Source: Owenia fusiformis (taxonomy: Eukaryota > Annelida > Polychaeta > Sabellida > Oweniidae). From it: a stretch of DNA of 64,000 nt. Below, one piece after another: positions 366 through 47,775 of this stretch. How positions within the stretch are numbered: the stretch's first letter is position 1; the number at the start of each line of letters is the position of its first letter. The position numbers and the translations under genes were made by a program. The notes under the pieces were generated by a model, which searched no databases, was not told the origin of the DNA, and worked only from the letters and a program-made list of their open reading frames with translations. The stretch spans positions 20,657,181 through 20,721,180 of the forward strand of contig CAIIXF020000010.1 of assembly GCA_903813345.2 (NCBI GenBank). The letters run 5' to 3'.

Positions 366-2390
366 AAATGTGGTAGGCGTTTAGTGTTAAAAGAGTTCTG
401 ACAAGTGTTTCTTATGTAACTTTTTATGCTGAATCCAAAAAACCATGTTGGCATGCTGAAATATGATTATTTAACCCTTAAAATACCATATTAGTCCCCC
501 TACCCCCAAAATTCACCCCTATCAGGGGGAAAAAATTCGTCAACCTAAAATAACTTTGATTTTATGGTTTTTGTAAGTGAAATACATGGACATTGTATAA
601 AATAAACATTTAAAGTATGAATGATACGGATTACACTTAAGAAATTTGAATAAAAGCAAAAAGTATGTACCCCAGGGGGCAAATTTATGACCCATTTTTT
701 ACTTTTCGTGTCATAACTTTTTTATTAGACAATGATGGATGCTAAAAAAATCCATGTAAAAGGCATAATACCTGGTCTACTAATCCTGCAAGAATCAAAG
801 TAATTCCTTTGATAATTGCCTTGAAAAAAATTAGTGAATTTAAGAAAAAATGACATTTTAGCTGGGACTGATTTTATGTGTGGCTATAACTGACCCCTAT
901 TGCTTTAACATTTATCCATCTGTGTTCATATATTTGGCATTTTAGAATAAATCTAAAATATAAAACTTATTTTAGCTAAGTTTTAGGAAGATTTAAGCTT
1001 TCTAGCATGTTCAAATATTAAAAATTCATGAAATATGATGTCTAAAATTGATAAGTTATAGGTATACCCTTGGAAGACCCCTATAATTTCTTATTTATGA
1101 ACATATTTGTACCAATATTAGTTTTCTAGCTTAGACAAATAATGTATGATATATCCTGGCTTCGCTTTCTGGTGGTTTGAACAATCTTAGGTGTTATCAT
1201 TGAAAATTCATTCTTAAATCATAGGTCTGCAATCGATTAAATTCAAGTATACCATTAGCCTAGTATCATTCTACTGGTACAGGGTGTCCAAAAAACAGGA
1301 CCGAAGAAAAGTTAGTTAACTTTGTCAATCCTGCATATTCTGCCTCAAAACTTCAGAATTATTCAGTTCATTCAATCTGAATTTTTTTTTGATAATCTGC
1401 CTGTGGAGTCAAAAACTACAGCACTTTACAACATATGTCCAATGTGGCCACTTCTCTACATGCACAATCAAATCTGGCGAAGGAAGTTGTTCAATTGTCC
1501 ATGGCGTGACTAAAATCTATCTAGAGAAGTAAAACTAGTGTCAGACAAATTCTCAGATGTTCTTCAATTTTAAGTGGATAGCTTCATCAGAAGCTTTGCA
1601 ATCCATGTTGGTATGTGTAGGAGAGTCATCAACAGCTTCGTTGGCTGGAGTGGTGGCCACATGGGGCATGTGTTGTAAAATGCTGTAGTTTTTTACTTTA
1701 TAAGCAGATTATCATTAAATGTTCACAACAAAATCTACATTAAATGAAGTAAATAATTCTGAAATATTAAAGCAAAATATGCAAGATTGCCCAAAATAAT
1801 CAACATGAACAAGCTATGATTTCATAGATTAGTTTGATGTATGACATATTCCGAGCTGACTCTCTGTTTATTTAAACCATCTAAGAGGCTTAATCATTGA
1901 AAATCATTACAAATAAAGGTCTAAACAGACAGTATTAAGGTACACTATTAGAATACCCTAATTATTTCCAGGCTTAGAGTTTATTGGTACCTACTACTGT
2001 TTCATAGCTCGGAGGTTTAATATATGATATATCCTGACTAGTTTTTCGGCAGATTTGAACCAATGACAGTTCTAATCATTGATTATACTTCATATACTAG
2101 GTTTAAAATTGAAGTATTCAATAGAACCCTCTATGAAAATTCAAAAAAAGATTCAAAATGACATTAACCTCAACATTAGATCTGAATAAGGATTAAAATC
2201 CTTCATAGAGCTGAACAGGGAAGACAAGGCTAACTTCATTCTGGTGTTGATACATGGACCTGGTCCAAATCTTGCTATACTTCATCTAAGCCCAAAGAAA
2301 GGGAAATTTAGGAGCTTCATCTCAATGCATTTCAATGAGTGATCCCTTATTTCATGACCACCAAAATTATGGAAGGTGTGGCACAGTAAA
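366..2390 (+). repeat. Left arm of the giant inverted repeat
   Basis: Reverse complement of 3620-5569 with scattered substitutions and indels. The arm reads continuously except for about 525 bp of extra sequence at 1279-1805. The inner end was judged where the similarity to about 3620 fades, so it is approximate. Confidence 0.8.
1279..1805. mobile_element. Palindromic MITE-like insertion nested in the left arm
   Basis: This block is absent from the corresponding place in the right arm (around 4660-4680), so it entered after the arms formed. Its left end reads CAGGGTGTCCAAAAAACAGG after a TA. Its two halves are inverted copies: GCATATTCTGCCTCAAAACT near 1332 pairs with the complement of sequence near 1780, and GTGGCCAC occurs near 1444 and 1655. 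CAGGGTGTCC with TA targeting is typical of Tc1/mariner-like non-autonomous elements, but the right terminus looks truncated. Confidence 0.6.
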
Positions 2391-3227
2391 CTTAGAGGAA
2401 ATGCACTAACTATCAGAATATAGTACCTGCTGCAGTTGAGCGAGGATTCTTGCATTGAACTATGTGGTAAAAGGCTCTACAAATTCAATCAACCAAGTTG
2501 ATTGACCCCTATGCAAGTATGCTATTGGTTAGAAGGGTGGCAGAATTGTAGGCATAACACAAAGACAATATCTGCATTGAACAGATAGGCACCGGGGTAT
2601 AATCTTAGGTCACACATGGAGAGTCCAAACAAGAATGATGTTTGGACTTGCGTTTTGAGATTCCATAGAGGGGGGGGGTGGTAATTTGCAAATCAAAACA
2701 AGAATCTATGGATATATAAGCACAAATGCCAAAGGGAAGGGTGACTAAAAACATTAAAGAAACCCAACAATAAAAGCAAACCGCAAGTGCAAATCTGTCA
2801 TAAGAAAAGTAGACCCTATATATCCCAAAACCATAATCTAACGTGAAAAGAAACAATGTCTAACATCCCCCTCCCCCCTCCAATCGAGAACCAATATCAC
2901 AATCCAGGACCAGAACACCAAGGGACATTTCATTCATACTGAAGTCATTACAATACATGTTGAAGAAAAATTGAAAAAATTGATAGCCAATACTCATAAC
3001 ATCAAAAATAGTTGTAGATACTAGTACTCATAAAAGATCAGTCTCTGGAAGAAGATAAAATATGTGACATGCTGCTGAAGTTTGGCATGTTTTCAGAAGA
3101 TCCATTACTTAATCTCCAAAGTATATCTACAAAAGATGTACTCACAGAAACAATCAACAGGCTCGACAGTTTGGCCAACAACAACTGGATGTCTTTGTGT
3201 CTTAGAGGTTGATACCAACAGAGTCAA

Positions 3228-3485
3228 ATGAGAGACACAACATTTCTTGATCTACTGAGCAAGCACCAACATTTTCTAAACTATGTGCCTAATCCCAATT
3301 TAAACGAGCATAAAGTTGTTAGGGCAGACAAGAATGTTTTGCAGAATCTTATCACTGCATATGAAGCTAACCACAGACCTGTGGGCATCAATGAAATCAT
3401 GAAACATGAGCTGATGTCTTTTCCAATAGCCCTCTCGTTGACGAATGAAACATTCAAGCCAACTCAAATGTACTCTACTCCTTAA
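3228..3485 (+). pseudogene. Degenerate open frame in the spacer of the giant inverted repeat
   Basis: An 85-codon frame from ATG to TAA. The product is soluble, Asn/Leu-rich and ends ...KPTQMYSTP. It contains the stretch VGINEIMKHELMSFPIALSL. This vaguely recalls short segments of repeat-encoded uncharacterised proteins of marine invertebrates that precede a nuclease-like region, but I cannot name the family. The frame stays protein-like just upstream of the ATG but is broken by stops, and the downstream DNA (3490-3780) also shows interrupted coding-like sequence. I read it as a remnant of an element-encoded gene. Confidence 0.3.
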
Positions 3486-3619
3486 CTGTTTAACAAATTG
3501 TATTGAAATGCCAACCGTAATATTTCCAATATATGATCCTTCTTACAAATTAGCATCAATTGCATCTACATCTGAGGATTTGGCTACAGTCTTCTAGGAA
3601 GCAAAACTTCAGCAGTGAA

Positions 3620-5569
3620 GTGTACTGTGCCCCATCTTGCATACTTTTGGTGGTCATATCTCATGAAAAAGGGGATCATGCATTGAAATACATTGAGATG
3701 AAGCTCACAATTTCCCTTTCTTTGGGCTATGGTGAAGCGTATCAAGATTTGGACCATGTCCATGTATTACTACCAGAATGAAAAGTAATCCTTGTCTTCC
3801 TTGTTCAGCTCTATGAAGGATTGTAATTCTGATTTACAAGAGTCATCCGAGATCACATCAATCAGTTGCTTTATTTGATTTCCAGATCAAATGTTATGGT
3901 CAATGTCATTCTGAATCTTTTTTGAATTTCCCATATATGGTCCTATTGGATTTAAATTTCAAAAATTGCTACTCTGCAAAAACTCTCATTAACTGAAACA
4001 TCCCACTAATTCAAAATGTTGTCAAAGTGAGTATACGCGTTTGTCAAGAATTTGCCAAGAGTAACACAGAAAGGTTAATGGGGACAGTGGGGGGGGGGGA
4101 TTTTTTAATATGACTTAACATTGTTCAGGGAAGAAAACTCCATAAAAAGAAGATTTGTAAGAATCATTGGTACTTTTGCTCTCACGTCATGCAATTGTCA
4201 GGCTGCTTAGAATGAAATTAGCCTTGTCTTCGTAGTTCAGCTCTATGAAGAATTGTAATTCTGATTCAGATCCAGTGTTGAGGTTAATGTCATTCAGAAT
4301 CTTTTTTGAATTTATCATAGAGGGTTCTATTGAATACTTCAATTTTAGACCTAGTATATTAAGTATATTCAATGATTAGACCTGTTAGGTGGTTCAAATC
4401 TGCAGAAAAACTAGTCAGAATATGTCATATATCAAACCTCCGAGCTATGAGACAGTAGTAGGTACCAATATACTCTAAGCCTGGAATTAATAAGGGTGTT
4501 CTAATAGTCTACCTTAATACTGTCCGTTTAGGCCTTTATTTGTAATGGTTTTCAATGATTAAGCCTCTTAGATGGTTAAAATCACCAGAAAGTCAGCTCG
4601 GAATATGTCATGCATCAAACAACTAATCTATGAAATCATAGCTAGTTCAATTATGCTCATACCAGTAGAATGGTACTAATGGTATACATGAATTTAATCG
4701 ATTGCAGACCTATGATTTAAGAATGAATTTTCAATGATAACACTTAAAAGATTGTTCAAACCACCAGAAAGCCAAGCCAGGATATATCATATATCATTTC
4801 TCTAAGCTAGAAAACTAATATTGGTACAAATATGTTCATAAATAAGAAATATTAGGGTCTTCCAAGGGTATACGTATAACTTATCAATTTTAGACATCAT
4901 ATTTCATGAATTTTTAATAGTTGAACATGATAAAAAGCTTAAATCTTCCTAAAACTTAGCTAAAATAAGTTTTATATTTTAGATTTATTCTAAAATGCTA
5001 AATATATGAACACAGAGGGATAAATGTTAAAGCAATAGGGGTCAATTATAGTCACACATAAAATCAGTCCCAGCTAAAATGTCATTTTTTCTTAAATTCA
5101 CTAATTTTTTTCAAGGCAATTATCAAAGGAATTACTTTGATTCTTGCAGGATTAGTAGACCAGGTATTATGCCTTTTACATGGATTTTTTTAGCATCCAT
5201 CATTGTCTAATAAAAAAGTTATGACACGAAAAGTAAAAAATGGGTCATAAATTTGCCCCCTGGGGTACATACTTTTTGCTTTTATTCAAATTTCTTAAGG
5301 GTAATCCGTATCATTCATACTTCAAATGTTTATTTTATACAATGTCCATGTATTTCACTTACAAAAACCATAAAATCAAAGTTATTTTAGGTTGACGAAT
5401 TTTTTCCCCCTGATAGGGGTGAATTTTGGGGGTAGGGGGACTAACATGGTATTTTAAGGGTTAAATAATCATATTTCAGCTTGCCAACATGGTTTTTTGG
5501 ATTCAGCATAAAAAGTTACATAAGAAACACTTGTCAGAACACTTTTAACACTAAACGCCTACCACATTT
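3620..5569 (-). repeat. Right arm of the giant inverted repeat
   Basis: Inverted partner of 366-2390. It contains an internal direct duplication: the stretch around 3790-3960 (TTCAGCTCTATGAAGGATTG...) recurs around 4200-4340. It also has a run of about eleven G at 4090. The outer end is sharp at 5569. Confidence 0.8.
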
Positions 5570-6689
5570 TACAGAGAGACCTTTTGCAGAAAAGCACCCG
5601 GTCTATTAGGCTAGTCTAAGTCCTATAGATCTAAGAGTCATAGCCCAGGCATAGGCCCGTAAAAATGTAAAGAAATAAAGCTTACAGCATGTTCTATTTA
5701 AGTGAATTTGACTCATGTTATACATGTTCCATGCCTATGCCTAGTATAGTCCCGCAGGACGAAGAAGATAGAATGTAAAAATCAAATTGAAAATCAAAAT
5801 AATCGAACGAAAAAAAATTGAAAAAGTTGAAAATTCGATTTCGATTCAATTTGATTTTCTGCCATTATAAATGAAATACTGTACTTACCAACATGTTTCT
5901 CGGATATATATGTTGTTCTTACTTTATCTTCGCCGAAGATCGATGTTTATTTATATATAACAATCGAATAATCGACATAATTCAAACTCATCACTACGAC
6001 ACAAAAATATATCACTTTCGAAACCATGTAAACTGCTAAGATGACGTCATTTATATCCGGGATTGCTTTGCAAACTCCACACAACAGACTGTCCCATCTT
6101 TTCTCCTGCTTTCTCCCGATGCAATTCATACATTACTCGGAGATTACTGTCAAACGTTCCAAGTTTTACAATTTTAGCATGTTTATTACGATCTAATTCC
6201 TGCCAGTATCAATGAATAAATCTATTGACCAACAGATTGGAAATATGTATTCCAGCGATACCCTCATTTTGACGAAAGAATGGTACAAATATGTCCACTA
6301 TTTATCGAGATATCGTGTAGAAAAATTGAAGAAAGACATCGCTTAAGAAATTTCTATTTCTAGACTGAACTGTTCACGCTCGCAAGTGGCATCTCCAACT
6401 CCATATATGGGCAAAAAGGTGGAGTTAACAATAAGCAATGTAGGGATTGACACGATTGACACGAAGAAGTCTCGATGAATCTCGCTTAAACTCCGCCCCT
6501 TTTTCGTGAAAAATCACGTGAATTCCGGCTTTTGCTGGGACATATCCGGGCATCTCGGCTTCGAACCCAATCAGAAGTTTCAATTTTGACTGGCGCCGCA
6601 TACATTATCTCAAGTCTCACCCAATATTTTTATTTATCGTATGATCTGTAAAATGACGCCCTCTGATTGGTCGGTTCTTGTGCTGTACC
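5570..6689. other. Intergenic DNA without recognised gene
   Basis: Flank of the giant inverted repeat. It has short AT-rich simple stretches (AAATCAAAATAATCGAA-like around 5780-5850) and no coding frame with domain content on either strand. A 60-codon minus-strand frame (6129-5947) has no recognisable features. Confidence 0.4.
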
Positions 6690-6942
6690 AATCTGTATTG
6701 CTACTGAGATTGTCCCCGTTGGTCATCTCCGTCGCAATACAGAAAATATTGGTACGGAGGGGACAATCTCCGTAGCAATACAGAGGATCACACGATAAAA
6801 ACGTTATTGAATGATTTGAAGTGCAATACAGGATATATTCTGTCTCGATATTCTGTATTGGCACTCGACTTCGTCTCGTTCCAATACGGAATATCTCGAG
6901 CAGAATATATCCTGTATTGCACTTCAAATCATTCACTAACTT
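6690..6942. mobile_element. Pair of adjacent nested palindromes (MITE-like)
   Basis: CTGTATTGCTACTGAGATTG at 6693 is mirrored by CAATCTCCGTAGCAATACAG ending at 6783. Then TTGAATGATTTGAAGTGCAA from about 6807 is mirrored by TTGCACTTCAAATCATTCAC, with a further inner stem (CTCGATATTCTGTATTGG against CCAATACGGAATATCTCGAG). The outer sequence ACGTTATT..AATGATTT is shared with the palindrome at 15424-15557, which suggests one family of short foldback elements. Confidence 0.65.
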
Positions 6943-7839
6943 ATAGTATACGTTAAATATACATGAGTAGAATGATTCACGTTGACACCAACGCGAAATT
7001 GCAAATCACCCGTTCTAAACACGAAACTGAAGTTGATCGCGGGCATCTGAAGTAGACTAAGTATAGTAGCGCTTGTTTTGTAGCGCGCTATACGTTGTGA
7101 AAAATATCGCTAGCTTGAAGTCTCCACTTTCTCTATCGTGGCGTGAAATAACAAAGTAAAATACGAAATGACAGTTCTCCAATTTTGTCAACGATTATGG
7201 AATCTTGCTTTTTATGCAATTTAGTAAATATTGTAGCCAATAGGTATGGACCTAGAATGCTTGGAAAACATTATTTAACCCCATCTCAAAATGTATATGA
7301 TAAAGTTATATGCTTTTATTATTGACACATGAAACTTGGTAATGTGGATTCATTACTTTATCCTTAATACTATGTACAACAATTAGATTTGTTACAAACC
7401 TGTAAAAATGGGTGACCTAGTGATCATTACTTCTTGAACAGCCTGTATTACGCCACGATTCAGCATTATATTATTCGAAGCGTTTTTACAAAACTTAAAA
7501 TCCGCAATTTTGCTTTTTAACAATACCCAAGTTTAAAGATGAATGATTCATATGATGCAGGTATATGTTAAACCATGCCATGTTTTATGTATCATTCAGG
7601 ACCCCCCCCCCCCCCGGCCAAAAATTCTTACAAAATCATGCAGTTTTTCACTATTTTGAGCATTTCTCATGTAATTTTAGTTATATTGTGGCCAAAATTG
7701 TCAAATGTTAACCCCCCTGGAAATCTTTGAAGACTGAAGCCACCCACCCTTTTACACCGGTTTAAATGTCCAAGTCGAAAGTTATTCCATGATTCAGTAC
7801 ATGCAGATTATAAGCGTTTCCCCATACATGTATTTGCAG
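6943..7839. other. Non-coding stretch with a partial element copy
   Basis: Contains GTTTAAAGATGAATGATTCA...CCATGCCATGTTTTATGTATCAT at about 7530-7595. This matches the left end of the palindromic element at 54711-55319, so it is probably a solo, decayed end of the same family. A run of about 14 C follows at 7602-7615. No coding exon is seen before 7840. Confidence 0.45.
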
Positions 7840-7944
7840 ATGATGCCCAAGAAATGACGGTGACCAATTCATGTTGCTCCAATAGTATACTTGAGGGGCT
7901 AAGACATCAGGAACGACTCTCAGACACTGACTCTCAGAAAACAG
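7840..7944 (+). CDS. Candidate penultimate exon of the peptide GPCR (third intracellular loop)
   Basis: A 105-bp open block lies between a 3' splice site (TATTTGCAG, ending 7839) and a 5' splice site (ACAG|GTAACA at 7944/7945). Read in the only open frame it encodes DAQEMTVTNSCCSNS..., rich in Ser, Thr, Asp and Glu, as is usual for a receptor cytoplasmic loop. It ends one base into a codon (G). The exon at 11775 begins with the two bases AT, so the join gives Asp and stays in frame. The phase match and polar composition are the support. There is no membrane segment or family motif in the exon itself, so it is an inference that it belongs to the receptor. Earlier exons (TM1-TM5) are not visible and should lie to the left of the window. 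Confidence 0.4.
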
Positions 7945-8006
7945 GTAACAAAATAGTCCATATGCATAGTTCTTCTATATAAATTAATGTGCATATTAGA
8001 GATGTA

Positions 8007-8860
8007 TTCGGATTACTTAAATGACCTTCTGGATACTAAGTTTTTATTTCAGCAGTCTTCTATTTCATCCCTTCTATTCGGATTCCCTCAAATGATCATT
8101 TAGAAACTAAGTTTCTATTTCCTTCTATTCTGATTCCTTTAATTAGCCCATGGACGCTATTTCCTTCTATTCTGATTCCTTACACTACCTTTCTATTTCC
8201 TTCTATTCTGAATTCTTTAATGGCCCACTGGACACCAAGTCTCTATCTCCTTCTATTCCGATTACTTTAATGACCCTCTGGACACCAAGTTTCTATTTCC
8301 TTCTATTCTGATTCCTTTAATGACCATCTGGACACTAAATTTCTATTTCCTTCTATTCTAATTTCTTTAATGACCATCTGGACACTAAGTTTCTATTTCC
8401 TTCTATTCTGAATTCTTTAATGACCCTCTGGACACTTAATTTCTATCTCCTTCCATTCCAATTACTTTAATGACCCTCTGGACACCAAGTTTCTACTTCC
8501 TTCTATTTCTGATTCCTTTAATGACCATCTGGACACTAAGTTTCTATTTCCTTCTATTCTGATTCCTTAAATGAGTTTCTGAACACCAAGTTTCTCTTTT
8601 TCTTCTATTCTGATTCCTTTAATGACCATCTGGACACTAAGTTTCTATTTTCTTCTGTTCGGATTCCTTCAAATGACCATTTGAAAACTAAGTTTCAATT
8701 CCCTTTTATTCTGATTCCTTCAATGACCCTCTGGACACTAAGTGTCCATTTTTTCTATTCGGATCCCTTCAAATGACCATTTAAAACTAACGATTTCCCT
8801 CTATTCCGACTCCTTTAATGAGCCCCTAGACGCCATTTCCTTCTATTCTGATTCCTTACG
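8007..8860. repeat. Minisatellite, about 50-bp unit, roughly 16 copies
   Basis: Tandem, diverged copies of a unit of about 50 bp built from TTTCTATTTCCTTCTATTCT, GATTCCTTTAATGACC and ATCTGGACACTAAG. The middle copies (8230-8640) are the most regular. The edges are degraded, and some units lack the GGACAC part. It lies inside the inferred receptor intron. Confidence 0.9.
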
Positions 8861-9132
8861 AGTTTACACTGATATAAAAACGAGAATCACGCTGTAAGTT
8901 TTGTATCGCTTTTGTAGTCTCCCTGATAAATATATTATAGTTATATATAAATCATCAGTTCTGTTGTGTTAAACTATTTTCCATCATCTTAGATTGTATT
9001 AAGATGAATTCACATTAGCACTTTCACCTGAGGTTCCCCGATCAACTTTCCGTGCATTATCAAAATGTTCAGTTGATCTAATTACTTCTAGAAAGTGTCA
9101 TTACATATTCAGCAATGCATTCAAACTCGATT

Positions 9133-9427
9133 AAAACAAAGGATTCGTATCGATATGGTGAACTGATTCAACATTGTTTTTCTCATATGTCATTTTGTTC
9201 CAATGAGTCTCGGATAGATGTTTCATTTCATTCCGAACATTTGATACCAAGAACAAAAGAAGTGTCCGATGTGTTTTCTAAAACTATATAGAGAAAAGTA
9301 TATTTTTTCAAATCAAATTGTTGCCATTCAAAAGATGATTATTAAATTGACGATGTGTAAAATTTTCAGAATTTGTTTAAGAGAAACATTTGTTCAGTTC
9401 ATCATATCGATACCAATCCTTTGTTTT
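9133..9427. mobile_element. Palindromic MITE-like element, about 295 bp
   Basis: AAAACAAAGGATTCGTATCG at 9133 is inverted at CGATACCAATCCTTTGTTTT ending at 9427. The pairing continues inward over about 50 bp on each side (ATGGTGAACTGA against TCAGTTCATCAT). The interior is AT-rich and non-coding. Confidence 0.7.
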
Positions 9428-10009
9428 CCTAATAGGGTGTGATATAGACCGAGATTATGGAATATGAATTATCATTCTTATTCATAAACATTTCCTATTG
9501 CATCGGAAAAAATACATATTCTATTATTATTATTTTGTCAAAGGTAGATGGTGGTCAAAAATATATCAATTCCATCTCAATAAAGTTTATACTATAAAAA
9601 AGATTAATTTTTAAACATGTCATTTCAGGCGTTCGTTGGATATAACAATGAATATCCTTGGTACTTAAGCTAAACACGTTCTGCTCATTGTATCCGTGTA
9701 AAGACTTTCTTATTTTGTATATTTTTAGACAGCGTTATTTGACTAGGCGTAATCAGCTCCTTTATTAGGCAAACGTGTGATTACAGTCGTAAAAGGACCT
9801 ATGTATTCGTTATAATGCTTTCAGACACATGTAGCAAGAAAACGTGATCAGCCTCACACCTCTTTGATATATATCTTTCATCTATATTTATACATAATTC
9901 TGATTGATATTCCATAACACATATTTTCAAATGTTATTCCAATTAAGGACATCTTGTATCGATGTAATGTATACCATTCGAATTTAGAAATTGGTTTACT
10001 GGGCGGCAC

Positions 10010-10540
10010 ATGTGTATATACACTGGTGATCCACGCGAAACGCTGGTTCGTTTCGGTAACAAAATGTCGGAACCTCAAAGGTACGGATTTTTCTTTTTTC
10101 TCATTTCACGCGTTGTTGGCAGAGTTCCCACGACACTTTTGTCACAAAACGTACACATAGTAAACGTATATGTTTGCGAACAAATAGTTCAGAAGACAAC
10201 ATAATCGTCGATTTAATACCTCACTATTGTTACCAAAACGAAACGGGTTAGAAGCGCAGATCTTAACCGTTTTTTTGCACTTTCGTTTCGGTAACAAAAG
10301 TGAGGTATTAAATCGACGATTCTGTTGTCTTCTGAACTATTTGTTCACAAACATGTGCATTTTCTTATTTCTTAGCCATATGAAACGGATACTAGTTTGT
10401 GGTAAAATGTTGTTGGAATTCAGCCTGCAAAGCGTGAAATAAGGAGAAAAATCGTACCTTCGATGTTTCGACATTTTACTACCGAAACGAACCATTTTGG
10501 TAACCAGCGTAATCGAGTGGATCACCGGTGATATAGTATA
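10010..10540. mobile_element. Palindromic element, about 530 bp
   Basis: Nearly the whole segment folds back on itself. CACTGGTGATCCAC at 10020 pairs with GTGGATCACCGGTG at 10518. GGTTCGTTTCGGTAACAAAATG pairs with the complement near 10475. AGTTCAGAAGACAAC near 10186 pairs with GTTGTCTTCTGAACT near 10325. The short frames seen here on both strands are products of the palindrome, not genes. It lies inside the inferred receptor intron. Confidence 0.8.
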
Positions 10541-11000
10541 GGGTGTCAAACTAACTGCCTTCTTCATCAGTAAGCACATAAAATGTAATATGCAGATACA
10601 CGGATATCTTATAATTTATCTATGGCTTTAATAGTGTTATCACTGAAAACACAATTAGTAATTAAGATTTTTTAATGAATGGAGTATAAAACATAGAAAT
10701 GATAGCTTTTCCATATTTTTACCTCATTTTTACCCGGTTTTATGGTTATCATTGTATCACATTGTCTGGGTTGCGACATATTATTCTAATGATTACACTT
10801 ACTGTAATTTTTGAATCTGGTATTTACCTTGTTTTTGATGTATTTTATTTATTTATTGATTTCTCAATTCACCCGTTATAGGGTATAAGAGTACAAAAGA
10901 TAAACTTAAGTAATATACCGTAGTAACAAACATTAAAACAACATTATAATTGCCCAGCCTCGATTAAAAATTTACAACGTTTTATTAGTATATTTTTGTT

Positions 11001-11407
11001 TCAATTCATTAATTCATTTAACTTCTGTGTGTTTGGACTTGTGGAATAACATTTAGGATGGTACCTTCTTCTAAAATAACTTAAAGCTTTGCATTCTAAA
11101 ATGACATGAAATTCATCACCTATTCCTTTACCACATAAATCGCAAAACCTATTTTCCCTTAGAACATTTTTATAACACTCCCTTTCAACTGGGAGTTTAT
11201 TATTACACAATCGGTACATAACTATTTTATCTGGTAAAATGTAATTAGAAAACGACAGGTTATCGTCTTCTCTTTTATGAAAATGAAGGGTATACAGTGT
11301 ACATATGGGTTGTCTACTGGAAGGTTTTGGAAACATGATTTATCCCGAGGAAACTTTTTGAATTTCTGTTTTCCTCCAAAGTTAAGTTGAACTCTGTGTT
11401 TCCTCAA
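11001..11407 (-). pseudogene. Non-LTR retrotransposon (LINE) ORF2 C-terminal relic
   Basis: The minus-strand frame encodes a tail typical of LINE reverse-transcriptase proteins: a segment with the YRLCNNKLPVERE pattern, followed by a C-x2-C-x8-H-x4-C zinc-knuckle-like motif (CDLCGKGIGDEFHVILEC). An overlapping frame (11407-11222) carries what looks like the preceding residues (VQLNFGGKQKF), so the copy is frameshifted. No upstream polymerase domain remains. It is a 5'-truncated, dead copy within the receptor intron. The pattern is known from LINE-derived proteins of molluscs and other invertebrates, but the clade was not determined. Confidence 0.65.
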
Positions 11408-11774
11408 TTACAATAGTAAATGAAAACATGCTAACTTTGTTGAATTTAGTTTTTCTGCAAAATCCGAATAGAATAATGGAATTGCTTGAAGCTATTTAAG
11501 AAGATTGCGTGATATGTTTCTCGTTGCTCGGTATTATTCAGCTGTATTAATTATGTCGTTTCTGTCCAATGCTCTCGGCCATGCTGCTATTGATGCAATC
11601 AAGGATATTTGTTGAATTTTTTAATCTAATCTTTTAGACATAGATTTGCGAAGTAGATGACTTCGACAGAACAGGCCGCAGATCGAAATCATGTAAATCA
11701 CAGCTTATACTGTTTTCATATTGAAGCAAATTTTATAATACAAATCGTATTTATTTCGCAATTTATATTTCCAG

Positions 11775-12157
11775 ATATGTCCGATCTTTCAACAAGTGAA
11801 ATGCTACGAGGCCCAATACGGAACCAACTCTTCAAGAAGGCAAAGATAAAGTCATTGCGTATGACCGCAGTTATCGTCCTGGCCTTCATATTGTGCTGGA
11901 CCCCCTACTATGTTGTCTTAATCACTTGGACATACTTCAAGCCACAACTGCCTCATTCACCACATTTCTTCATTTGGATATTCTTCTTTGGGATGTCCAA
12001 CAGTATGATAAATCCCCTAATATATGGGGCGTTTCATTTTTGCTCAAGGAACAACAGTAGGAGGCTTGTAACAGTAAAGACGCTGACTTTCGATAAATTG
12101 AAACATACGTCCTCGAAGCGAAAGTCTCAGACTAGTAAATTACCAATGTTGGCATAA
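11775..12157 (+). CDS. Last exon of a GnRH/AKH/corazonin-receptor-like GPCR
   Basis: Terminal exon of a rhodopsin-class peptide receptor. The 3' splice site is TTATATTTCCAG ending at 11774, and the frame runs to TAA at 12155-12157. It encodes the end of the third loop with the basic pre-TM6 stretch (KKAKIKSLRMT), TM6 with the CWTP motif (ILCWTPYYVV), a short third extracellular loop, TM7 with NPLIY in NSMINPLIYG (the NPxxY motif), then a basic, Ser/Thr-rich tail of about 45 residues. The combination KSLRMT..CWTPYY and FFFGMSNSMINP is characteristic of the invertebrate GnRH/adipokinetic/corazonin receptor superfamily. Which branch cannot be told from TM6-TM7 alone, and a related vasopressin-type receptor is the alternative. 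Such receptors sit in the plasma membrane and signal mostly through Gq. The 3' part of this exon seeds the tandem array that follows. Confidence 0.8.
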
Positions 12158-12159
12158 TA

Positions 12160-14280
12160 AGAGACATTGTCACGGGCTACAGGTGTCGACGGAAGAGCGT
12201 CTGTTGTACAAAACTTGAGATGGGGATTTAGGTGTCGACAGGAGAGCGTCTGTTGTCGAAAACTTGAGGCATGATAGATTGAACGAAAATATTGGACGTT
12301 TCATATTTGCTCAAGGAACAACAGAGGCTTGTAACAGTAAAGACGCTGACTTTCAATAAATTGAAACATACGTCCTCGAAGCGAAAGTCTCAGACTAGTA
12401 AATTACCAATGTTGGCATAATAAGAGACATTGTCACGGGCTACAGGTGTCGACGGGTGAGGTCTGTTTGTACAAAACTTGAGATGGGCATATATTGTACG
12501 AAAATATTGGGCGTTTCATATTTGATCAAGGAACAACAGTAGGAGGCTTGTAACAGTAAAGACGCTGACTTTCAATAAATTGAAACATACGTCCTCGAAG
12601 CGAAAGTCTCAGACTAGTAAATTACCAATGTTGGCATAATAAGAAACACTGTCACGGGCTACAGGTGTCGACGAGAGAGGTCTGTTTGTACAAAACTTGA
12701 GGCATAATATATTGAACGAAAATATTGGGCGTTTCATATTTGATCAAGGAACAACAGTAGGAGGCTTGTAACAGTAAAGACGCTGACTTTCAATAAATTG
12801 AAACATACGTCCTCGAAGCGAAAGTCTCAGACTAGTAAATTACCAATGTTGGCATAATAAGAGACATTGTCACGGGCTACAGGTGTCGACGGGTGAGGTC
12901 TGTTTGTACAAAACTTGAGATGGGCATATATTGTACGAAAATATTGGGCGTTTCATATTTGATCAAGGAACAACAGTAGGAGGCTTGTAACAGTAAAGAC
13001 GCTGACTTTCAATAAATTGAAACATACGTCCTCGAAGCGAAAGTCTCAGACTAGTAAATTACCAATGTTGGCATAATAAGAAACACTGTCACGGGCTACA
13101 GGTGTCGACGAGAGAGGTCTGTTTGTACAAAACTTGAGGCATAATATATTGAACGAAAATATTGGGCGTTTCATATTTGATCAAGGAACAACAGTAGGAG
13201 GCTTGTAACAGTAAAGACGCTGACTTTCAATAAATTGAAACATACGTCCTCGAAGCGAAAGTCTCAGACTAGTAAATTACCAATGTTGGCATAATAAGAG
13301 ACATTGTCACGGGCTACAGGTGTCGACGGGTGAGGTCTAGCTGTTGTACAAAACTTGAGATGGGCATATATTGTACGAAAATATTGGGCGTTTCATATTT
13401 GCTCAAAGAACGACATGGGCTATCAACAGTAAAGACGCTGACTTTCGATGAATTGAAACATACATCCTCGAAGCGGAAGTCTCAGACTAGTAAATTATCA
13501 ATGTTGACATAAAAGGACAATTCCACGGCCTATAGGTGTCGACGGGAGAGGTCTGTTGTACAAAACTTGAGATGGGCTTATATTGAGCAAAAATATGGGG
13601 CGTTTCATATTTGCTCAAGGAATAACAACGCTTAGATTGAGCAAAAATATGGGGCGTTTCATATTTGCTTTGTAGGAGGCTTGTAACAGTAAAGACGCTG
13701 ACTTTCAATAAATTGAAACATACGTCCTCGAAGCGAAAGTCTCAGACTAGTAAATTACCAATGTTGGCATAATAAGAGACATTGTCACGGGCTACAGGTG
13801 TCGACGGGTGAGGTCTAGCTGTTGTACAAAACTTGAGATGGGCATATAAATAATATTGTACGAAAATATTGGGCGTTTCATATTTGCTCAAAGAACGACA
13901 TGGGCTATCAACAGTAAAGACGCTGACTTTCGATGAATTGAAACATACGTCCTCGAAGCGGAAGTCTCAGACTAGTAAATTATCAATGTTGACATAAAAG
14001 GACAATTCCACGGCCTATAGGTGTCGACGGGAGAGGTCTGTTGTACAAAACTTGAGATGGGCTTATATTGAGCAAAAATATGGGGCGTTTCATATTTGCT
14101 CAAGGAATAACAACGCTTAGATTGAGCAAAAATATGGGGCGTTTGCATATTTGCTCAAGGAATAACAACAAAAGTCTTGTAACAGTAAAGACGCTGACGT
14201 TCGATAAATTGAAACATACGTCCTCGAAGCGGAAGTCTGTTGTACAAAACGTGGGATAGGCATACAGTATATTGAACGAA
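12160..14280 (+). repeat. Tandem array derived from the receptor's last exon and 3' UTR
   Basis: The tail-coding segment GTAACAGTAAAGACGCTGAC, unique to the gene at 12068, recurs at 12331, 12550, 12768, 12987, 13205, 13423, 13683, 13906 and 14179. Each copy includes the end of the coding tail, its stop codon (GGCATAATAA) and about 75 bp of 3' flank with a GTCGAC site. From 12331 to 13423 the spacing is 218-219 bp. Two unit types (ACTTGAGATGGGCATATATTG and ACTTGAGGCATAATATATTG) alternate, giving a higher-order period of about 437 bp. Several copies have TGA in place of the TGC codon of the gene (TTTGATCAAGG against TTTTGCTCAAGG). The last third is more rearranged. No copy includes TM6 or TM7, so these are not extra receptor genes. 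Confidence 0.95.
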
Positions 14281-15109
14281 TACATGGAGACTGAATCTTC
14301 TCATAATATGTATATATATTTAATTATAACAAGAACATCAACGTCACTATATGTACATAGACTAATTATTTATGTATGAGAAATAAATATAATGTATATG
14401 AAAAAATTGTCTGGTATGAAACGTGCATATCGTAAATGAAGATACACAGTTGCAAAAATGTTGATTCAAATTCTTAAGTAATATTGTATAAAACCCTTTG
14501 AACACGAATCATTAATCAAGTGGGCGAAGCGAAGGAGTAGTGTTGTCGTTGAACTTTGAATTGAAAGAGGCGATAAGATATCGCGAGAAATAATCCAAAG
14601 TTTGGTTTATCCGGATCCCATGCTTACAATATAAAATTCAGAAAAATCAATTTCGATATCATACGGATTTAATTTTGGCACATCGTGCTAAACCAGCGAA
14701 AATTAAAGCCTACTACTAAAAAAATACAGAGTGAAAAATTAAAATTAGGTCACCGTTGGGATATGGTTCAGTATCCCAAGGCCCCAGATTACCATCCAGG
14801 ATATGACTGTTACTGAAATATTCGATGGCGATTAGTTTAAGCAGTCATGTGCTAATCTTTGCGATTTGCTATAAAACTGTGATCGATCATTATAATTTAT
14901 AATTTGAGGTTAAAACCCGCATCTGCAAATATAAGAAAACAAGTCGAAGCATACACATTGTTTTCAATAAAAAATCCAATATGGCAGACGAAAGTCGAAA
15001 AACGTTTCGCTACACTGCACTTTCAGCTGATGAAATTGAAGAGAAGGGGCATAAGATTAAACGTACCGTATAATACAAGAAAATCAAATGAGTAAGGTTG
15101 ATCTGTCTG
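14281..15109. other. Non-coding stretch after the array
   Basis: AT-rich DNA. AATAAATATAATG near 14380 could serve as a distal polyadenylation signal for the receptor gene but is not distinctive. No coding frame with domain content. Confidence 0.35.
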
Positions 15110-21120: not shown

Positions 21121-21560
21121 CTTTGGAGATCCATAGTATTCAGCTTCCAATGATCACTGAATAGGTTTGAGATCCTTAGTTGTCGACTCAAATTTAGCAC
21201 TATATGTCCGTGAGATCCATAGTATTCAACTCCAAATTATCACTGTATATGTCGAAGAGATTCGTAGTTGTCAGCTTCATATGATCACTGAATATGTTTG
21301 AGATCCATAGTTGTCGACTCAAATTTAGCACTATATGTCCGTGAGATCCATAGTATTCAACTCCAAATTATCACTGTATATGTCGAAGAGATTCGTAGTT
21401 GTCAGCTTCATATGATCACTGAATATGTTTGAGATCCATAGTTGTCGACTCAAATTTAGCACTATATGTCCGTGAGATCCATAGTATTCAACTCCAAATT
21501 ATCACTGTATATGTCGAGGAGATTCGTAGCTGTGCGCTTCCAATGATCACTATTTATGAG
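21121..21560. repeat. Nested tandem repeat: 131-bp unit made of three 43-44 bp subunits
   Basis: GAGATCC(A/T)TAGTTGTCGACTC starts at 21169, 21300 and 21431, exactly 131 bp apart. Each unit is itself three diverged subunits beginning GAGATCCATAGTTGTC, GAGATCCATAGTATTC and GAGATTCGTAG(T/C)TGT. This records two rounds of amplification. The first and last units are partial or diverged. Confidence 0.95.
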
Positions 21561-25484: not shown

Positions 25485-26753
25485 TTAGTTCATTGTAGGC
25501 GACACCGGGGTGTCGCAAAACACCTCCTCGTTGTCTTCGTGGTCACTTTCCACAGGATTTGCTGTCTGACTTTCTGCGACGACAGACAATTGGCTCAAAG
25601 GATTGAGAAGTGGATGAGATGAGCACGACGTTGCTAAATATGATGATGCTTGCGATTGTAAAAGTTCATAATGTTGAGATTGTAGAAATTGTAGATTCGG
25701 ATAAGAGTGTTTAGGGTCCCGTTGTGTAACAGTCGTTGTTGACGTTGACTGCGTAAATTCGTTACTAGTATTTGGGACGCATTCAACTTTTGGTCTTTTA
25801 TTTTGTGTCTTCGTCGCTAGGAGATTATCAATATCGAATGCTCGTTTGATCTTTCCAGATGTTGGAGCAGGAACAATAACGTCATTCATTACAGGGGAAT
25901 TCTTCTTTCCAAATGATTGATGGGGGATATGGTCGTGCTTGTCAGGAATCACATCACGTTGTGTACCATGATTATCTAATTCGTTCTGTTTAGTTTCGGA
26001 GATATCAATGTCACAAGCGATTGGGGAACTTGGTATTTCTTTCGGCATTGGATTGTGCGTAGGTACGCAGCCTGGGTGTTCAGGTGACTGCTGCCAAGTC
26101 GGTTGGCTAGTTACGGGAGGAGGACTGGGACTATCGTCCTCTTCATCTGGTACACTCAAACCCATAGCTCGTCTTACTTTTCTCTGTGCGCGTCTTCTTC
26201 GAAAGTCACCCTTCTGAAAGTCATCGACATTAGCGGGATGTATTGCCCAATAATGTCCCTTTCCGTTGGCGCTTCTACCGGCCTTGATAAAACAATCATT
26301 CAATGATAGATTGTGCCTGATGCTGTTTCTCCAGCCCGGTCCCCTTTGACGGAAATAAGAATAATTGTCTAATAGCCATTGGTAGATGTCACTTAGAACG
26401 AGTTTTTTATCTGGAGAACTGAGAATTGCTAGGGAGATCAACCCGATGTAACTCTGTTGCGGTTTTGGTTCCTCGTGAACAAACTGTAGTCGTGGATGGT
26501 ACTTATAAAGCATAGCGAGGTGCTGTGGTAGATAGGGATGCATCGTTGATAAAGCAGTTGGTGCTACACCTGGGTACGGCAACCCAGGTACCGAGCGACT
26601 CATATACGGCATCAATAATTGTCCCCCGAGCGAAGATGAGAAAGCGCCGGGTGGAACGCCCCTTGTGAGTGCGCTGTAAACGTCTGCACTTTGCTGCATC
26701 TGCTGGGCGAGAATCGGTGTCGGAACTTTGATGTTGACGTTTTGAAAAGCCAT
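25485..26753 (-). CDS. FoxQ2: FoxQ2-class forkhead transcription factor, copy 1
   Basis: Single-exon gene for a 422-residue nuclear DNA-binding protein. I start it at the ATG whose codon occupies 26751-26753 (context AACAAAATGG, A at -3 and G at +4). The open frame extends five codons further upstream but only to a GTG. Order of parts: N-terminal motif VPTPILAQQ at residues 10-18; Pro/Tyr/Met-rich linker; forkhead domain at about 94-198, beginning KPQQSYIGLI, with recognition-helix core [15 protein letters not shown] and the FoxQ2-typical [16 protein letters not shown] and basic [13 protein letters not shown]; acidic DEEDDSPSP; EH1-like FDIDNLL (306-312), the kind of motif that recruits Groucho/TLE corepressors; Ser/Thr/Gln-rich tail. 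The forkhead and EH1-like sequences are much closer to FoxQ2 than to FoxQ1, FoxA or FoxD. It is the most downstream of three same-strand paralogues. Confidence 0.93.
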   Translation of the reverse strand: MAFQNVNIKVPTPILAQQMQQSADVYSALTRGVPPGAFSSSLGGQLLMPYMSRSVPGLPYPGVAPTALSTMHPYLPQHLAMLYKYHPRLQFVHEEPKPQQSYIGLISLAILSSPDKKLVLSDIYQWLLDNYSYFRQRGPGWRNSIRHNLSLNDCFIKAGRSANGKGHYWAIHPANVDDFQKGDFRRRRAQRKVRRAMGLSVPDEEDDSPSPPPVTSQPTWQQSPEHPGCVPTHNPMPKEIPSSPIACDIDISETKQNELDNHGTQRDVIPDKHDHIPHQSFGKKNSPVMNDVIVPAPTSGKIKRAFDIDNLLATKTQNKRPKVECVPNTSNEFTQSTSTTTVTQRDPKHSYPNLQFLQSQHYELLQSQASSYLATSCSSHPLLNPLSQLSVVAESQTANPVESDHEDNEEVFCDTPVSPTMN

Positions 26754-27171
26754 TTTGTTGAACGCCACGTTACGTTACGTTGCGTTACAACTGGACTACG
26801 TGGTCGTTTCCTCAAAATCCTCCAAGAAGTAAACTCCTTGATAAAAGCTGTTTAATGTTTGTTTACTACGATTTCCCTAAATTATCTAGAAATCTATTTG
26901 TACTTCTGCATTCATTTCTATTAGCAATCGAGTTCCTATTGTTCCTAATATTCTTGAAATGTCCGAATGGCGATCCAAAAACCCTCAAAGTTGTCTATGT
27001 CGATAGTTTGTATTTTGTTTGTAACAACTCAAATGATATTGTGTGTTGATCCCTGGTTGTATCTTCAAAGACAATCACGTAGATGTTCCAGACTGTTTTA
27101 ACACTATTTAATTAAGTAAAGGGGAGGGTCCTATATTCACGCTAAGATCAAACTTGTAGAAAACAACCTCC
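26754..27171. other. Upstream region of FoxQ2 copy 1
   Basis: Immediately before the start lies a short ACGTT repeat (about 26767-26788). No TATA box stands out on the gene strand. The plus-strand frame 26780-27049 is not protein-like in context. Confidence 0.4.
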
Positions 27172-35779: not shown

Positions 35780-36868
35780 TTAATTATTACCCTGACATTG
35801 TCTTTTTGGAGTTTGAGCCTCATATATATCGTCTGGAGCCAAAAGACTTTCAACATCGAACGCTCGCTTTTTTCTAGGTCTATCTTGAGATATCGCTGAA
35901 GATTGTAAATGTGGCATAACTGGCTGAGGATAAAATCTTGGCTTATGAGACATCGAAGTGAACATATCAGCATGCTCTATTGGCTTAAAGTTATACATTG
36001 CTGGACAAGATGGATTGGCGAGGTCAGAGCTTTGAACGGACGAAATGTCTTTAGTAGATGTAGGATTGGACGGGTACATGTTCGTAGATTTAGGATCATT
36101 ATTGTACATGTTTGATGCTTCAAAACTGGGCCCAGGTGTACACACAGATGTTTCTGGCGGGCTTCCAGTTCGCTGCTTTCCACTTCCTTGCCAGGAAATA
36201 ACCGGTAATCTCACGACTGGAGATGGGCACGGGCTATCATCGTCATCATTGTCTGTAATATCAAGTCCCATAGCTTTACGCACTCTGTTCTGTGCCCGTC
36301 TTCTTCTGAAATCTCCTTTCTTGAAGTCCTCTAAGTTAGCGTCGTGTATTGCCCAATAATGTCCCTTGCCATTGGCACTCCTGTCCGCCTTGATAAAGCA
36401 ATCGTTCAATGAAAGATTATGGCGTATACTGTTCCTCCAGCCCGGGCCCCGCTGCCTAAAGTAAATATAGTTGTCAAGAATCCACTGGTAAATATCACTG
36501 AGAACCAGTCTCTTCTCCTTTGAACTTAAGATTGCCATGGCAATGAGTCCGATATAGCTGTATTGCGGCTTTGGCTCCTCACGACAAAGAAAGCTTGCCG
36601 GAAATCCAGGACGAGGAAAACCTGCTTGCAATGGATGTGGTACAGGAAGTATCGAAGTCGGATACGATATCGGCATGGGCATGGGCATAACGTGTCCTTG
36701 AAAACCTTGAAGAACAAGCTGGACTCTAGAATTATACTCTTGTATTTGTTGCGCCATCTCTGGTGTTGGAACCATGTGCTCTGATAACGTAAGCCCCGAC
36801 ATTGTTGGCATGTTCATTGTCGAATGCTGTCCGTATGGTTTCATCTGCTGACGAGTCTCTATCTCCAT
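35780..36868 (-). CDS. FoxQ2: FoxQ2-class forkhead transcription factor, copy 2
   Basis: Single-exon gene, 362 residues, from ATG at 36868 (context ATAATGG, A at -3, G at +4) to TAA at 35780. Parts in order: N-terminal [11 protein letters not shown] at about residues 33-43, aligned with VPTPILAQQMQ of copy 1; Met/Pro-rich linker; forkhead domain about 97-201 with [32 protein letters not shown] and basic [16 protein letters not shown]; acidic [12 protein letters not shown], matching the DEEDDSPSP of copy 1; Ser/Asn/Pro-rich region; EH1-like FDVESLL (337-343) near the C terminus. In wing 1 it has ADRSANGKG where copy 1 and most FoxQ2 proteins have AGRSANGKG. It is a nuclear transcription factor, likely a Groucho-dependent repressor. 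Copies 1 and 2 are clearly sister genes from a tandem duplication. Confidence 0.93.
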
Positions 36869-36889
36869 TATCCAGTTAATGTTGGTGCT

Positions 36890-36897
36890 CTTTTATA
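36890..36897 (-). promoter_or_regulatory. TATA-like box close to the start of FoxQ2 copy 2
   Basis: TATAAAAG on the gene strand, only 22-29 bp before the ATG. A start site about 30 bp downstream would fall on the ATG itself. So either the leader is nearly absent, translation starts at Met9 (MKPYGQ), or the box is not used. Confidence 0.25.
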
Positions 36898-46070: not shown

Positions 46071-46745
46071 TTAGCCATCCACTGAGCAGTGACTTAACAT
46101 TGGCGTTGAATTGTAGAATCGTAAAGCGTAAGGGTGGTAATGACGGTACCCAGGTACTGCATACCCCACTGCCTCGACACTCGTCATGGGGACGTATTCA
46201 TAGCGACATCTATTCAGTCTACCAGCGGCATTGCTACGATTGTTCGACGACCCATCCTCCCCATGGCGCGCGAGCCGCCGAGCCCGTCTGCGACGGAAAT
46301 CTCCCTGTTTGAAATCCTCAAGGCACGCACTATGAATAGTCCAATAATGTCCTTTCCCATTCTCGCTACGTCCACATTTTAGGAAGCACTCATTTAAGGA
46401 GAGGTTGTGCCGTATTGTGTTTCGCCAGGAGCGATCTTCCAAATTTCGATAATACGGGAATGTGTCGGTGATAAAGTCATATATATCCCCTAGTAACAAT
46501 TTATTCGAAGGGTGATTTAATATTGCCATAGATATTAAAGCAATGTAGGAATGACCGGGCTTCAGATCGCATTTGTCGACTTCGGACGCTTGTGTTTTAT
46601 TAAGTTTTGTGTCCCGTTGAATGACATCATGTCGTTTAATTGCTTCTGATCTAGGCGGCACTTTGACACGTGGTACAGCGAACTCTTGAAAGTCCATATG
46701 AGAGTCAAACAACCCATCATGTGTGACCCTTGGGTTTATATCCAT
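46071..46745 (-). CDS. FoxQ2: FoxQ2-class forkhead transcription factor, divergent short copy 3
   Basis: Single-exon gene, 224 residues, from ATG at 46745 (GACATGG, G at -3 and +4) to TAA at 46071. The forkhead domain spans about residues 61-160: [49 protein letters not shown] and basic DFRRRRARRLAR. Upstream is a 60-residue basic/polar N terminus without the VPTPxxAQQ motif. Downstream is a short tail ending in a Tyr/His-rich segment (GYRHYHPYALRFYNS). It has no EH1-like FxIxxLL motif and none of the acidic SP-rich linker of copies 1 and 2. Wing and helix signatures ([19 protein letters not shown]) place it in the FoxQ2 class, but in a different subtype. It probably differs from the other two in corepressor use. 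The same strand and spacing make it part of one cluster. Confidence 0.88.
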   Translation of the reverse strand: MDINPRVTHDGLFDSHMDFQEFAVPRVKVPPRSEAIKRHDVIQRDTKLNKTQASEVDKCDLKPGHSYIALISMAILNHPSNKLLLGDIYDFITDTFPYYRNLEDRSWRNTIRHNLSLNECFLKCGRSENGKGHYWTIHSACLEDFKQGDFRRRRARRLARHGEDGSSNNRSNAAGRLNRCRYEYVPMTSVEAVGYAVPGYRHYHPYALRFYNSTPMLSHCSVDG

Positions 46746-47775
46746 GTCCGCATCTGCTATGATGTGTCCAAACTATCTCCAAACTGTCTCTTCCCTATCA
46801 TTTGATGATCAAATCTAACAAAATGACTTCAACATTTGACCATGCGCGTATGTTTAGTCCAACGATATTTTGTTGCGTATACTGTAAGCGATGCTGGGTT
46901 TCGTGTCATGTACCTTTCTTGTGTTGCTATTTTGCCAGCCTGGAAAGTGTCAGCTATTTACACATTTTACCAACTTTTGTAACAAGTCAATCAACATTGC
47001 ACATCATACTCAACATTTGACAGGTCATGAATGTGTCTGCACAAGTGAAACGGGAACAGTAATAAAGTGTTACATAACAGATAGAGAGCACGAAAATGTA
47101 ACACCTAAAATGTTCAATATGTAAAATATGAAATAATGAAGAAGTTCAGATCTGATCTATAACAAGTTTTCTGTCATACTGAAACTTCATGATGATGTTT
47201 CATTCATGTTTGCGCAATACCCTCTTCAGCATAACTTACAAGGGTTGCACAAACGCATGGGATACCACGTCAGATACTGTACATCACGGCGTAACATTGT
47301 AATTGTTCATTTTACCGACAAAATGCAAAGATTTACGCGATTAATATATGTGCAATGCTCCTCCCAGTAATACTAATTGCAAAAGTTTTAATATTCGTGG
47401 AATCTTCTTAAAAACTTCAAGTTTTGTTCAGATTAATATGTGCTTCAATACAATTCGATATTCAAAAAGATTGTGTCACGATATACAGAATTAGAATCAC
47501 CAGAAAGTAGACATTTTAAACCCTACCCGTTTTCTTTGTCGCGTTTTTCGGCCATGCGCTCTCGTTGTCGCACCGTCTTTCTAGACTCTTTCACAGAGCC
47601 CCTTGTCATATTCAACTGATATACACAGACGGGAAAATAGTAAGGATTTTTAAATGTATTATTTATTTTAACTCGAATGTTTAGTTTTATTTATTTAAAG
47701 CAATTAATAATGAAGGAGAACATAGGCTATAATACGCTAACGGCGTAACGTCTTATTTTGTAAAGGCTTCACTTG
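46746..47775. other. Upstream region of FoxQ2 copy 3
   Basis: I find neither the AGTGACCAATCA element of copies 1 and 2 nor a TATA box near the start. No gene is recognised. It ends at the transposon with CACTG termini. Confidence 0.4.

Follow-up and report, generated by a model that had tools for sequence, protein, structure and literature searches.

The receptor exon and the array behind it

The window (the whole stretch of DNA that was analysed, 64,000 nt) contains the last exon of a rhodopsin-family GPCR and, directly behind it, a tandem array built of copies of the gene end (Table 1). The exon encodes TM6-TM7, helix 8 and the C-tail, and ends with a TAA stop codon followed by a second TAA. 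The reading frame is open from 11657 to 12157, and the exon probably starts near 11780, as judged from an acceptor-like tttccag; in a 1200-base piece the 7tm_1 match begins at profile position 162, at about base 11732, which is earlier than with the exon alone and makes the proposed start tentative. The Pfam 7tm_1 match of the exon (E = 1.2e-13) covers profile positions 196-260 of 260, the last 65 positions, and together with the NPxxY motif it places the exon in the rhodopsin family. Among the best 60 of 539 matches to solved sequences, the highest was 9u4y, a beta-2 adrenergic / GnRH receptor chimera (E = 6.7e-14, 55.2 bits), and by our reading the match falls in the GnRH receptor part of the chimera. 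It was followed, among the same 60, by the oxytocin receptor (51.2 bits) and the vasopressin V2 receptor, scores close enough to make any subfamily assignment tentative. As in the GnRH / corazonin / AKH receptor family, the TM6-TM7 exon is the last coding part here. In the human GnRH receptor gene, TM6-TM7 also lie in the last exon.

Exons for TM1-TM5 were sought by Pfam searches of 1200-base pieces from three frames of the + strand; 30 of the 33 pieces planned, covering 1101-12202, were searched. None was found there, the only 7tm_1 match being that of the known exon; one weak match to APOBEC_C (14.5 bits) was below the cut-off. The first base of the window may already lie in an intron of the receptor gene, or the exon could be an orphan or isolated fragment.

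Several other features were observed upstream of the exon. A large inverted repeat at 366-5569 has arms of 723 nt (366-1088 and 4847-5569) that are 98% complementary, with nested arms inward, and is perhaps a palindromic or foldback element. A 50-bp tandem repeat of about 12 copies at 8182-8780 had no Pfam match in three + strand frames. Nested inverted repeats at 10044-10494 (85 nt at 91% and 48 nt at 85%) suggest a MITE-like foldback element. An ORF on the minus strand at 11001-11339 has a weak match to zf-RVT, the reverse transcriptase zinc-binding domain (24 bits, cut-off 27.5), and is perhaps a decayed non-LTR element.

Table 1. Positions of the receptor exon, the array units and the other annotated features of the window
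Feature	Position	Strand	Remarks
Last exon, rhodopsin-family (GnRH / oxytocin-vasopressin receptor-like) GPCR	11780..12157	+	Pfam 7tm_1 and solved-sequence match
Left edge of array, AATATATGGGG	12019..12029	+	matches right edge at 9/11 bases
Unit 1, the gene's own copy (Tyr of NPxxY to stop, then two tandem spacers)	12022..12288	+	sole intact frame
Unit 2, spacer A	12289..12503	+	frame shifted by 4-base deletion
First AATAAA/ATTAAA hexamer past gene stop	12355..12360	+	in unit 2, at the place of gene codon GAT
Units 3-4, dimer 1, spacers B, A (unit 4 from 12722)	12504..12940	+	TGC>TGA stop in each
Units 5-6, dimer 2 (unit 6 from 13159)	12941..13380	+	TGC>TGA stop in each
Unit 7, diverged type C	13381..13646	+	frame shifted; includes 54-bp partial unit 13593-13646
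Unit 8, spacer A variant	13647..13865	+	frame shifted
Unit 9, type C, 1/266 from unit 7	13866..14131	+	frame shifted; includes 54-bp partial unit 14078-14131
Unit 10, last, with large internal deletion	14132..14280	+	frame shifted; continues into right flank
Right edge of array, AATACATGGAG	14279..14289	+	matches left edge at 9/11 bases
Forkhead-domain ORF	25485-26774	-	Pfam Forkhead, E 3.2e-32
Forkhead-domain ORF	35780-36892	-	Pfam Forkhead, E 2.3e-34
Forkhead-domain ORF	46071-46772	-	Pfam Forkhead, E 3.7e-32

Searches of the window with Tandem Repeats Finder and blastn (E up to 1e-3) revealed ten head-to-tail units, mostly of about 218 bp, that span 12,022 to about 14,280 (about 2.3 kb), nine of them extra to that of the gene. 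In this arrangement the ten units have the tandem head-to-tail organisation of satellite DNA. Tandem Repeats Finder reported periods of 218 (score 2270) and 437 (score 2397) at 12230-13627, and a period of 485 at 13194-14238. With the gene end as query, blastn found nine further copies from 12286 to 14238 and four short partial matches within the array, and no copy outside the array in the 64 kb at E up to 1e-3. The preliminary description had the gene tail copied about nine times, directly behind its source exon; both points hold, copies being found solely behind this exon in the window. The array start that it gave, 12068, had to be moved 46 bp further left, as the copied block begins at 12019-12022, inside the NPxxY codons.

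By our own reading of the alignment, the spacers of units 2 to 6 follow the order A, B, A, B, A variant, and those of units 7 to 9 the order C, A variant, C, the last unit, unit 10, carrying a deletion. The 267-bp unit of the gene was read in the same way as an A-like spacer followed by a B-like spacer with no core between them, as if the intervening core had been deleted. Past the double stop TAATAA, a typical unit has about 80 bases, and the gene's own has 131.

Amplification of the dimer and direction of copying

It had also been claimed that two unit variants alternate in the central part and that the 437-bp dimer was the unit amplified, and the self-comparison of the array agrees. At lag 437 an uninterrupted 578 bp (12324-12901) are identical, whereas at lags 218 and 219 no exact run exceeds 147 bp. 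Unit 3 differs from unit 5 at 0/218 positions and from unit 4 at 10/218; the multimers are more alike than the monomers within them, as in higher-order repeats. Dimer 1 and dimer 2 agree in 435 columns and differ by 2 mismatches and 3 gap columns. The amplification of the 437-bp dimer is recent. Core mismatches to the gene number 21/165 in unit 7, 20/165 in unit 9 and 9/106 in unit 10, the diverged units, and 4/167 in unit 2, 4 to 7/171 in units 3-6 and 4/161 in unit 8.

An intact reading frame was found in the gene copy alone (1/10 units), which is an internal mark of the unit under selection. All nine extra copies are broken, units 3-6 by a common TGC>TGA stop in helix 8 and units 2, 7, 8, 9 and 10 by frame-shifting indels, and the extra copies are noncoding. 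An unrooted tree of the cores, calculated without supports, places the gene on a near-zero branch along the path that leads from the central units to the diverged ones (7, 9 and 10); units 2, 4 and 6 have near-zero branches too. In a tree of the edge and spacer columns, the gene joins unit 10, and its branch is long (0.22). The first 16 copied residues (the NPxxY Tyr and helix 8) can be aligned gap-free to the GnRH receptor, 6/16 being identical, and the start of the block is therefore most likely part of the gene's old body. Judged from the ten units of this one window and the solved receptor sequences, copying from gene to array would be the likelier direction. The proposed origin from the receptor's last exon is supported by the helix 8 alignment, the sole intact frame and the place of the gene in the core tree. 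The codon at 12038 is TTT in the gene and ATT in all nine copies, so the founder may differ from the present gene tail. This difference and the place of the gene in the tree of edge and spacer columns count against the gene-to-array direction.

For copying in the opposite direction, an older dispersed satellite or a repeat-bearing mobile element, of the type of the oyster Helentrons, would have inserted here and supplied the receptor with its C-tail and 3′ end. The Pfam domain stops almost exactly at the start of the copied block, so that the domain by itself is no proof of an ancestral tail. According to PMC7492417, short satellite-like arrays in mobile elements occur widely through the oyster genome, those of Crassostrea gigas being carried by non-autonomous Helentrons, and they share with the present array that they are short tandem arrays outside the classical long arrays. 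The Helentron arrays, however, are central repeats of a mobile element, whereas here the receptor exon forms the left flank, and reading the flanks by eye revealed no element. The match of the first copied codons to GnRH receptor helix 8, the confinement of the intact frame to the gene copy, the intermediate place of the gene, with central copies on one side and diverged copies on the other (in a tree without supports), and the finding of no further copy within the 64-kb window all argue against such an insertion. An older satellite as the origin of the gene's tail is thus disfavoured, and we consider a satellite or element source unlikely.

Edges of the array and possible exchange with the coding tail

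The two edges of the array are similar to each other (Table 1). A match of 9/11 or better within 3 bases of register was found in 45/20000 random pairs from the window, a figure that serves as a guide and not as a test because the edges were picked after being seen. This near match could have seeded the first duplication. In the proposed sequence of events, the segment from the NPxxY codons to a point in the 3′ flank would have been tandemly duplicated, perhaps via slippage or unequal exchange at the near-matching sites. The units would then have diverged, and an A/B dimer would have been multiplied, presumably by unequal exchange; the exact 437-bp period shows that the latest dimer round occurred without measurable divergence. 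The nine dead copies would now probably lie within the receptor 3′ untranslated region or in intergenic DNA, with no function. We regard this account as a whole, from duplication of the gene end through divergence and dimer amplification to broken, functionless copies, as having good probability.

A further possibility is that the coding tail of the receptor and the dead copies exchange sequence, in which case the noncoding array would share in the evolution of the C-terminal tail of a hormone receptor. Between the gene and unit 4 there are 2 events in 147 bases (12047-12193, unit positions 26-172) and 6 in the 56 flanking bases (Fisher p = 0.006, uncorrected and with boundaries set after looking). 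The 147-base low-difference tract consists of 111 bases of tail and stop and 36 beyond, and begins just past 12043, the site of the stop codon in units 3-6. The same count, also uncorrected, gave p = 0.006 for the gene versus unit 6, 0.015 versus unit 2 and 0.12 versus unit 8. For pairs within the array it gave 0.35 (unit 3 versus unit 4) and 0.075 (unit 4 versus unit 6), values which indicate that the low-difference pattern is not general. Each indel was counted as one event. The count stopped at position 203 of the first unit, because the gene's spacer changes there; this left out three events in each comparison with the gene and one, at position 212, in unit 3 versus unit 4. A first count had given p = 1.1e-5 (gene versus unit 4) and 8.5e-6 (unit 3 versus unit 4), owing to poor alignment of the spacers; with each indel as one event and slightly different bins, these values fell to 0.006 and 0.35 and the first count was discarded.

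A run-length permutation was carried out on 7 of the 10 units, with 191 columns of which 40 were variable. It left out unit 10 for its large deletion, unit 5 as identical to unit 3 and unit 9 as having 1 difference from unit 7, and also gapped columns and columns past 213. The gene versus units 2, 3, 4, 6, 7 and 8 gave p = 0.019-0.13, with nothing significant after correction; 3 of the 21 pairs were below 0.0024 (0.05/21), none of them involving the gene. On these comparisons, the coding tail and the array may exchange sequence, which we put forward as a doubtful suggestion.

Function, related repeats and other features

AATAAA hexamers are present in six units (2, 3-6 and 8), and another lies past the array at 14382. 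The array might therefore have a role in providing alternative 3′ ends, or in other 3′ UTR control of the receptor, all the more as the first AATAAA/ATTAAA past the gene stop sits in unit 2. The six hexamers, however, occupy one shared place in copies of one sequence, where AAT stands in place of the GAT of the gene at 12092, and they likely trace to one change. There are also 86 AATAAA on the + strand of the 64-kb window, so that one per unit is unremarkable and needs no special cause, and a role in polyadenylation was judged weak. The one dimer that was folded did no better than its shuffles (z = 0.94; 86 of 100 shuffles folded at least as well), and the window has no Rfam family at gathering score, both in keeping with an array that has no role as RNA. 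The search for tRNA genes gave 0 matches. Such a role is accordingly very improbable in our estimate, and we are strongly inclined to see the array as without function.

Misassembly inflating the copy number is scarcely credible: near-identical 437-bp repeats are difficult to assemble, but units 2, 7, 8 and 10 are mutually different and have indels of their own, so the mixed array at least is real.

The locus is thus probably best read as a young, local higher-order array that arose from a gene end and is functionless. Minisatellites and VNTRs occur in gene 3′ regions, and the present array resembles them in being local, in its recent exact duplication and in its predicted copy-number variation; it differs in its long unit of about 218 bp, which includes coding bases and a stop codon. 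The preliminary description took it for satellite DNA, but with ten units and about 2.3 kb it could equally be a local mini- or macrosatellite. Satellite DNA in the usual sense forms long or numerous arrays, mostly in heterochromatin, and the window has a single array of this monomer, of 2.3 kb. Higher-order repeats consist of adjacent monomers multiplied jointly as one unit (PMC5615363), and with those of the alpha-satellite type the present array shares the amplification of two or more adjacent monomers together. Higher-order satellite repeats, however, are long and heterochromatic, whereas the present units number ten, take up 2.3 kb next to a gene and have a coding exon as source.

To our knowledge, the seed of a tandem array seldom still adjoins the array. 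At this locus 2.3 kb contain the probable source and the two edges as well as diverged copies and fresh dimers, so that the passage from a single sequence to a higher-order array can be followed at a single site. The sources of satellite DNA given in Section 4.1 of a 2025 review are transposable elements, rDNA spacers, micro- and minisatellites and older satellites, with no protein-coding exon among them (PMC12692304). A literature search of titles and the beginnings of abstracts, with subscription journals mostly outside it, found no case of a satellite derived from a coding exon. An exact 34-base core pattern had 0 matches in viral and prokaryote contig collections, a result that is uninformative for an animal genome. 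The array is a clear small example of a tandem repeat that was probably born from a gene, a neat local case and not a new kind.

A second small higher-order array was found in the same window at 21126-21558. It has a 131-bp spacing, with copies 95% and 90% identical to the first, and subunits of about 43 bp (68% matches at that period). Its presence makes the receptor-tail array less surprising.

The three consecutive forkhead-domain ORFs on the minus strand (Table 1) are presumably FoxQ2-like. FoxQ2 type I genes are often of high copy number in spiralians (PMC12828049), and the three ORFs thus give a hint of the type of animal concerned. Short tandem repeats were also observed at 60204-60583 and 61020-61246, with periods of 144 and 112.
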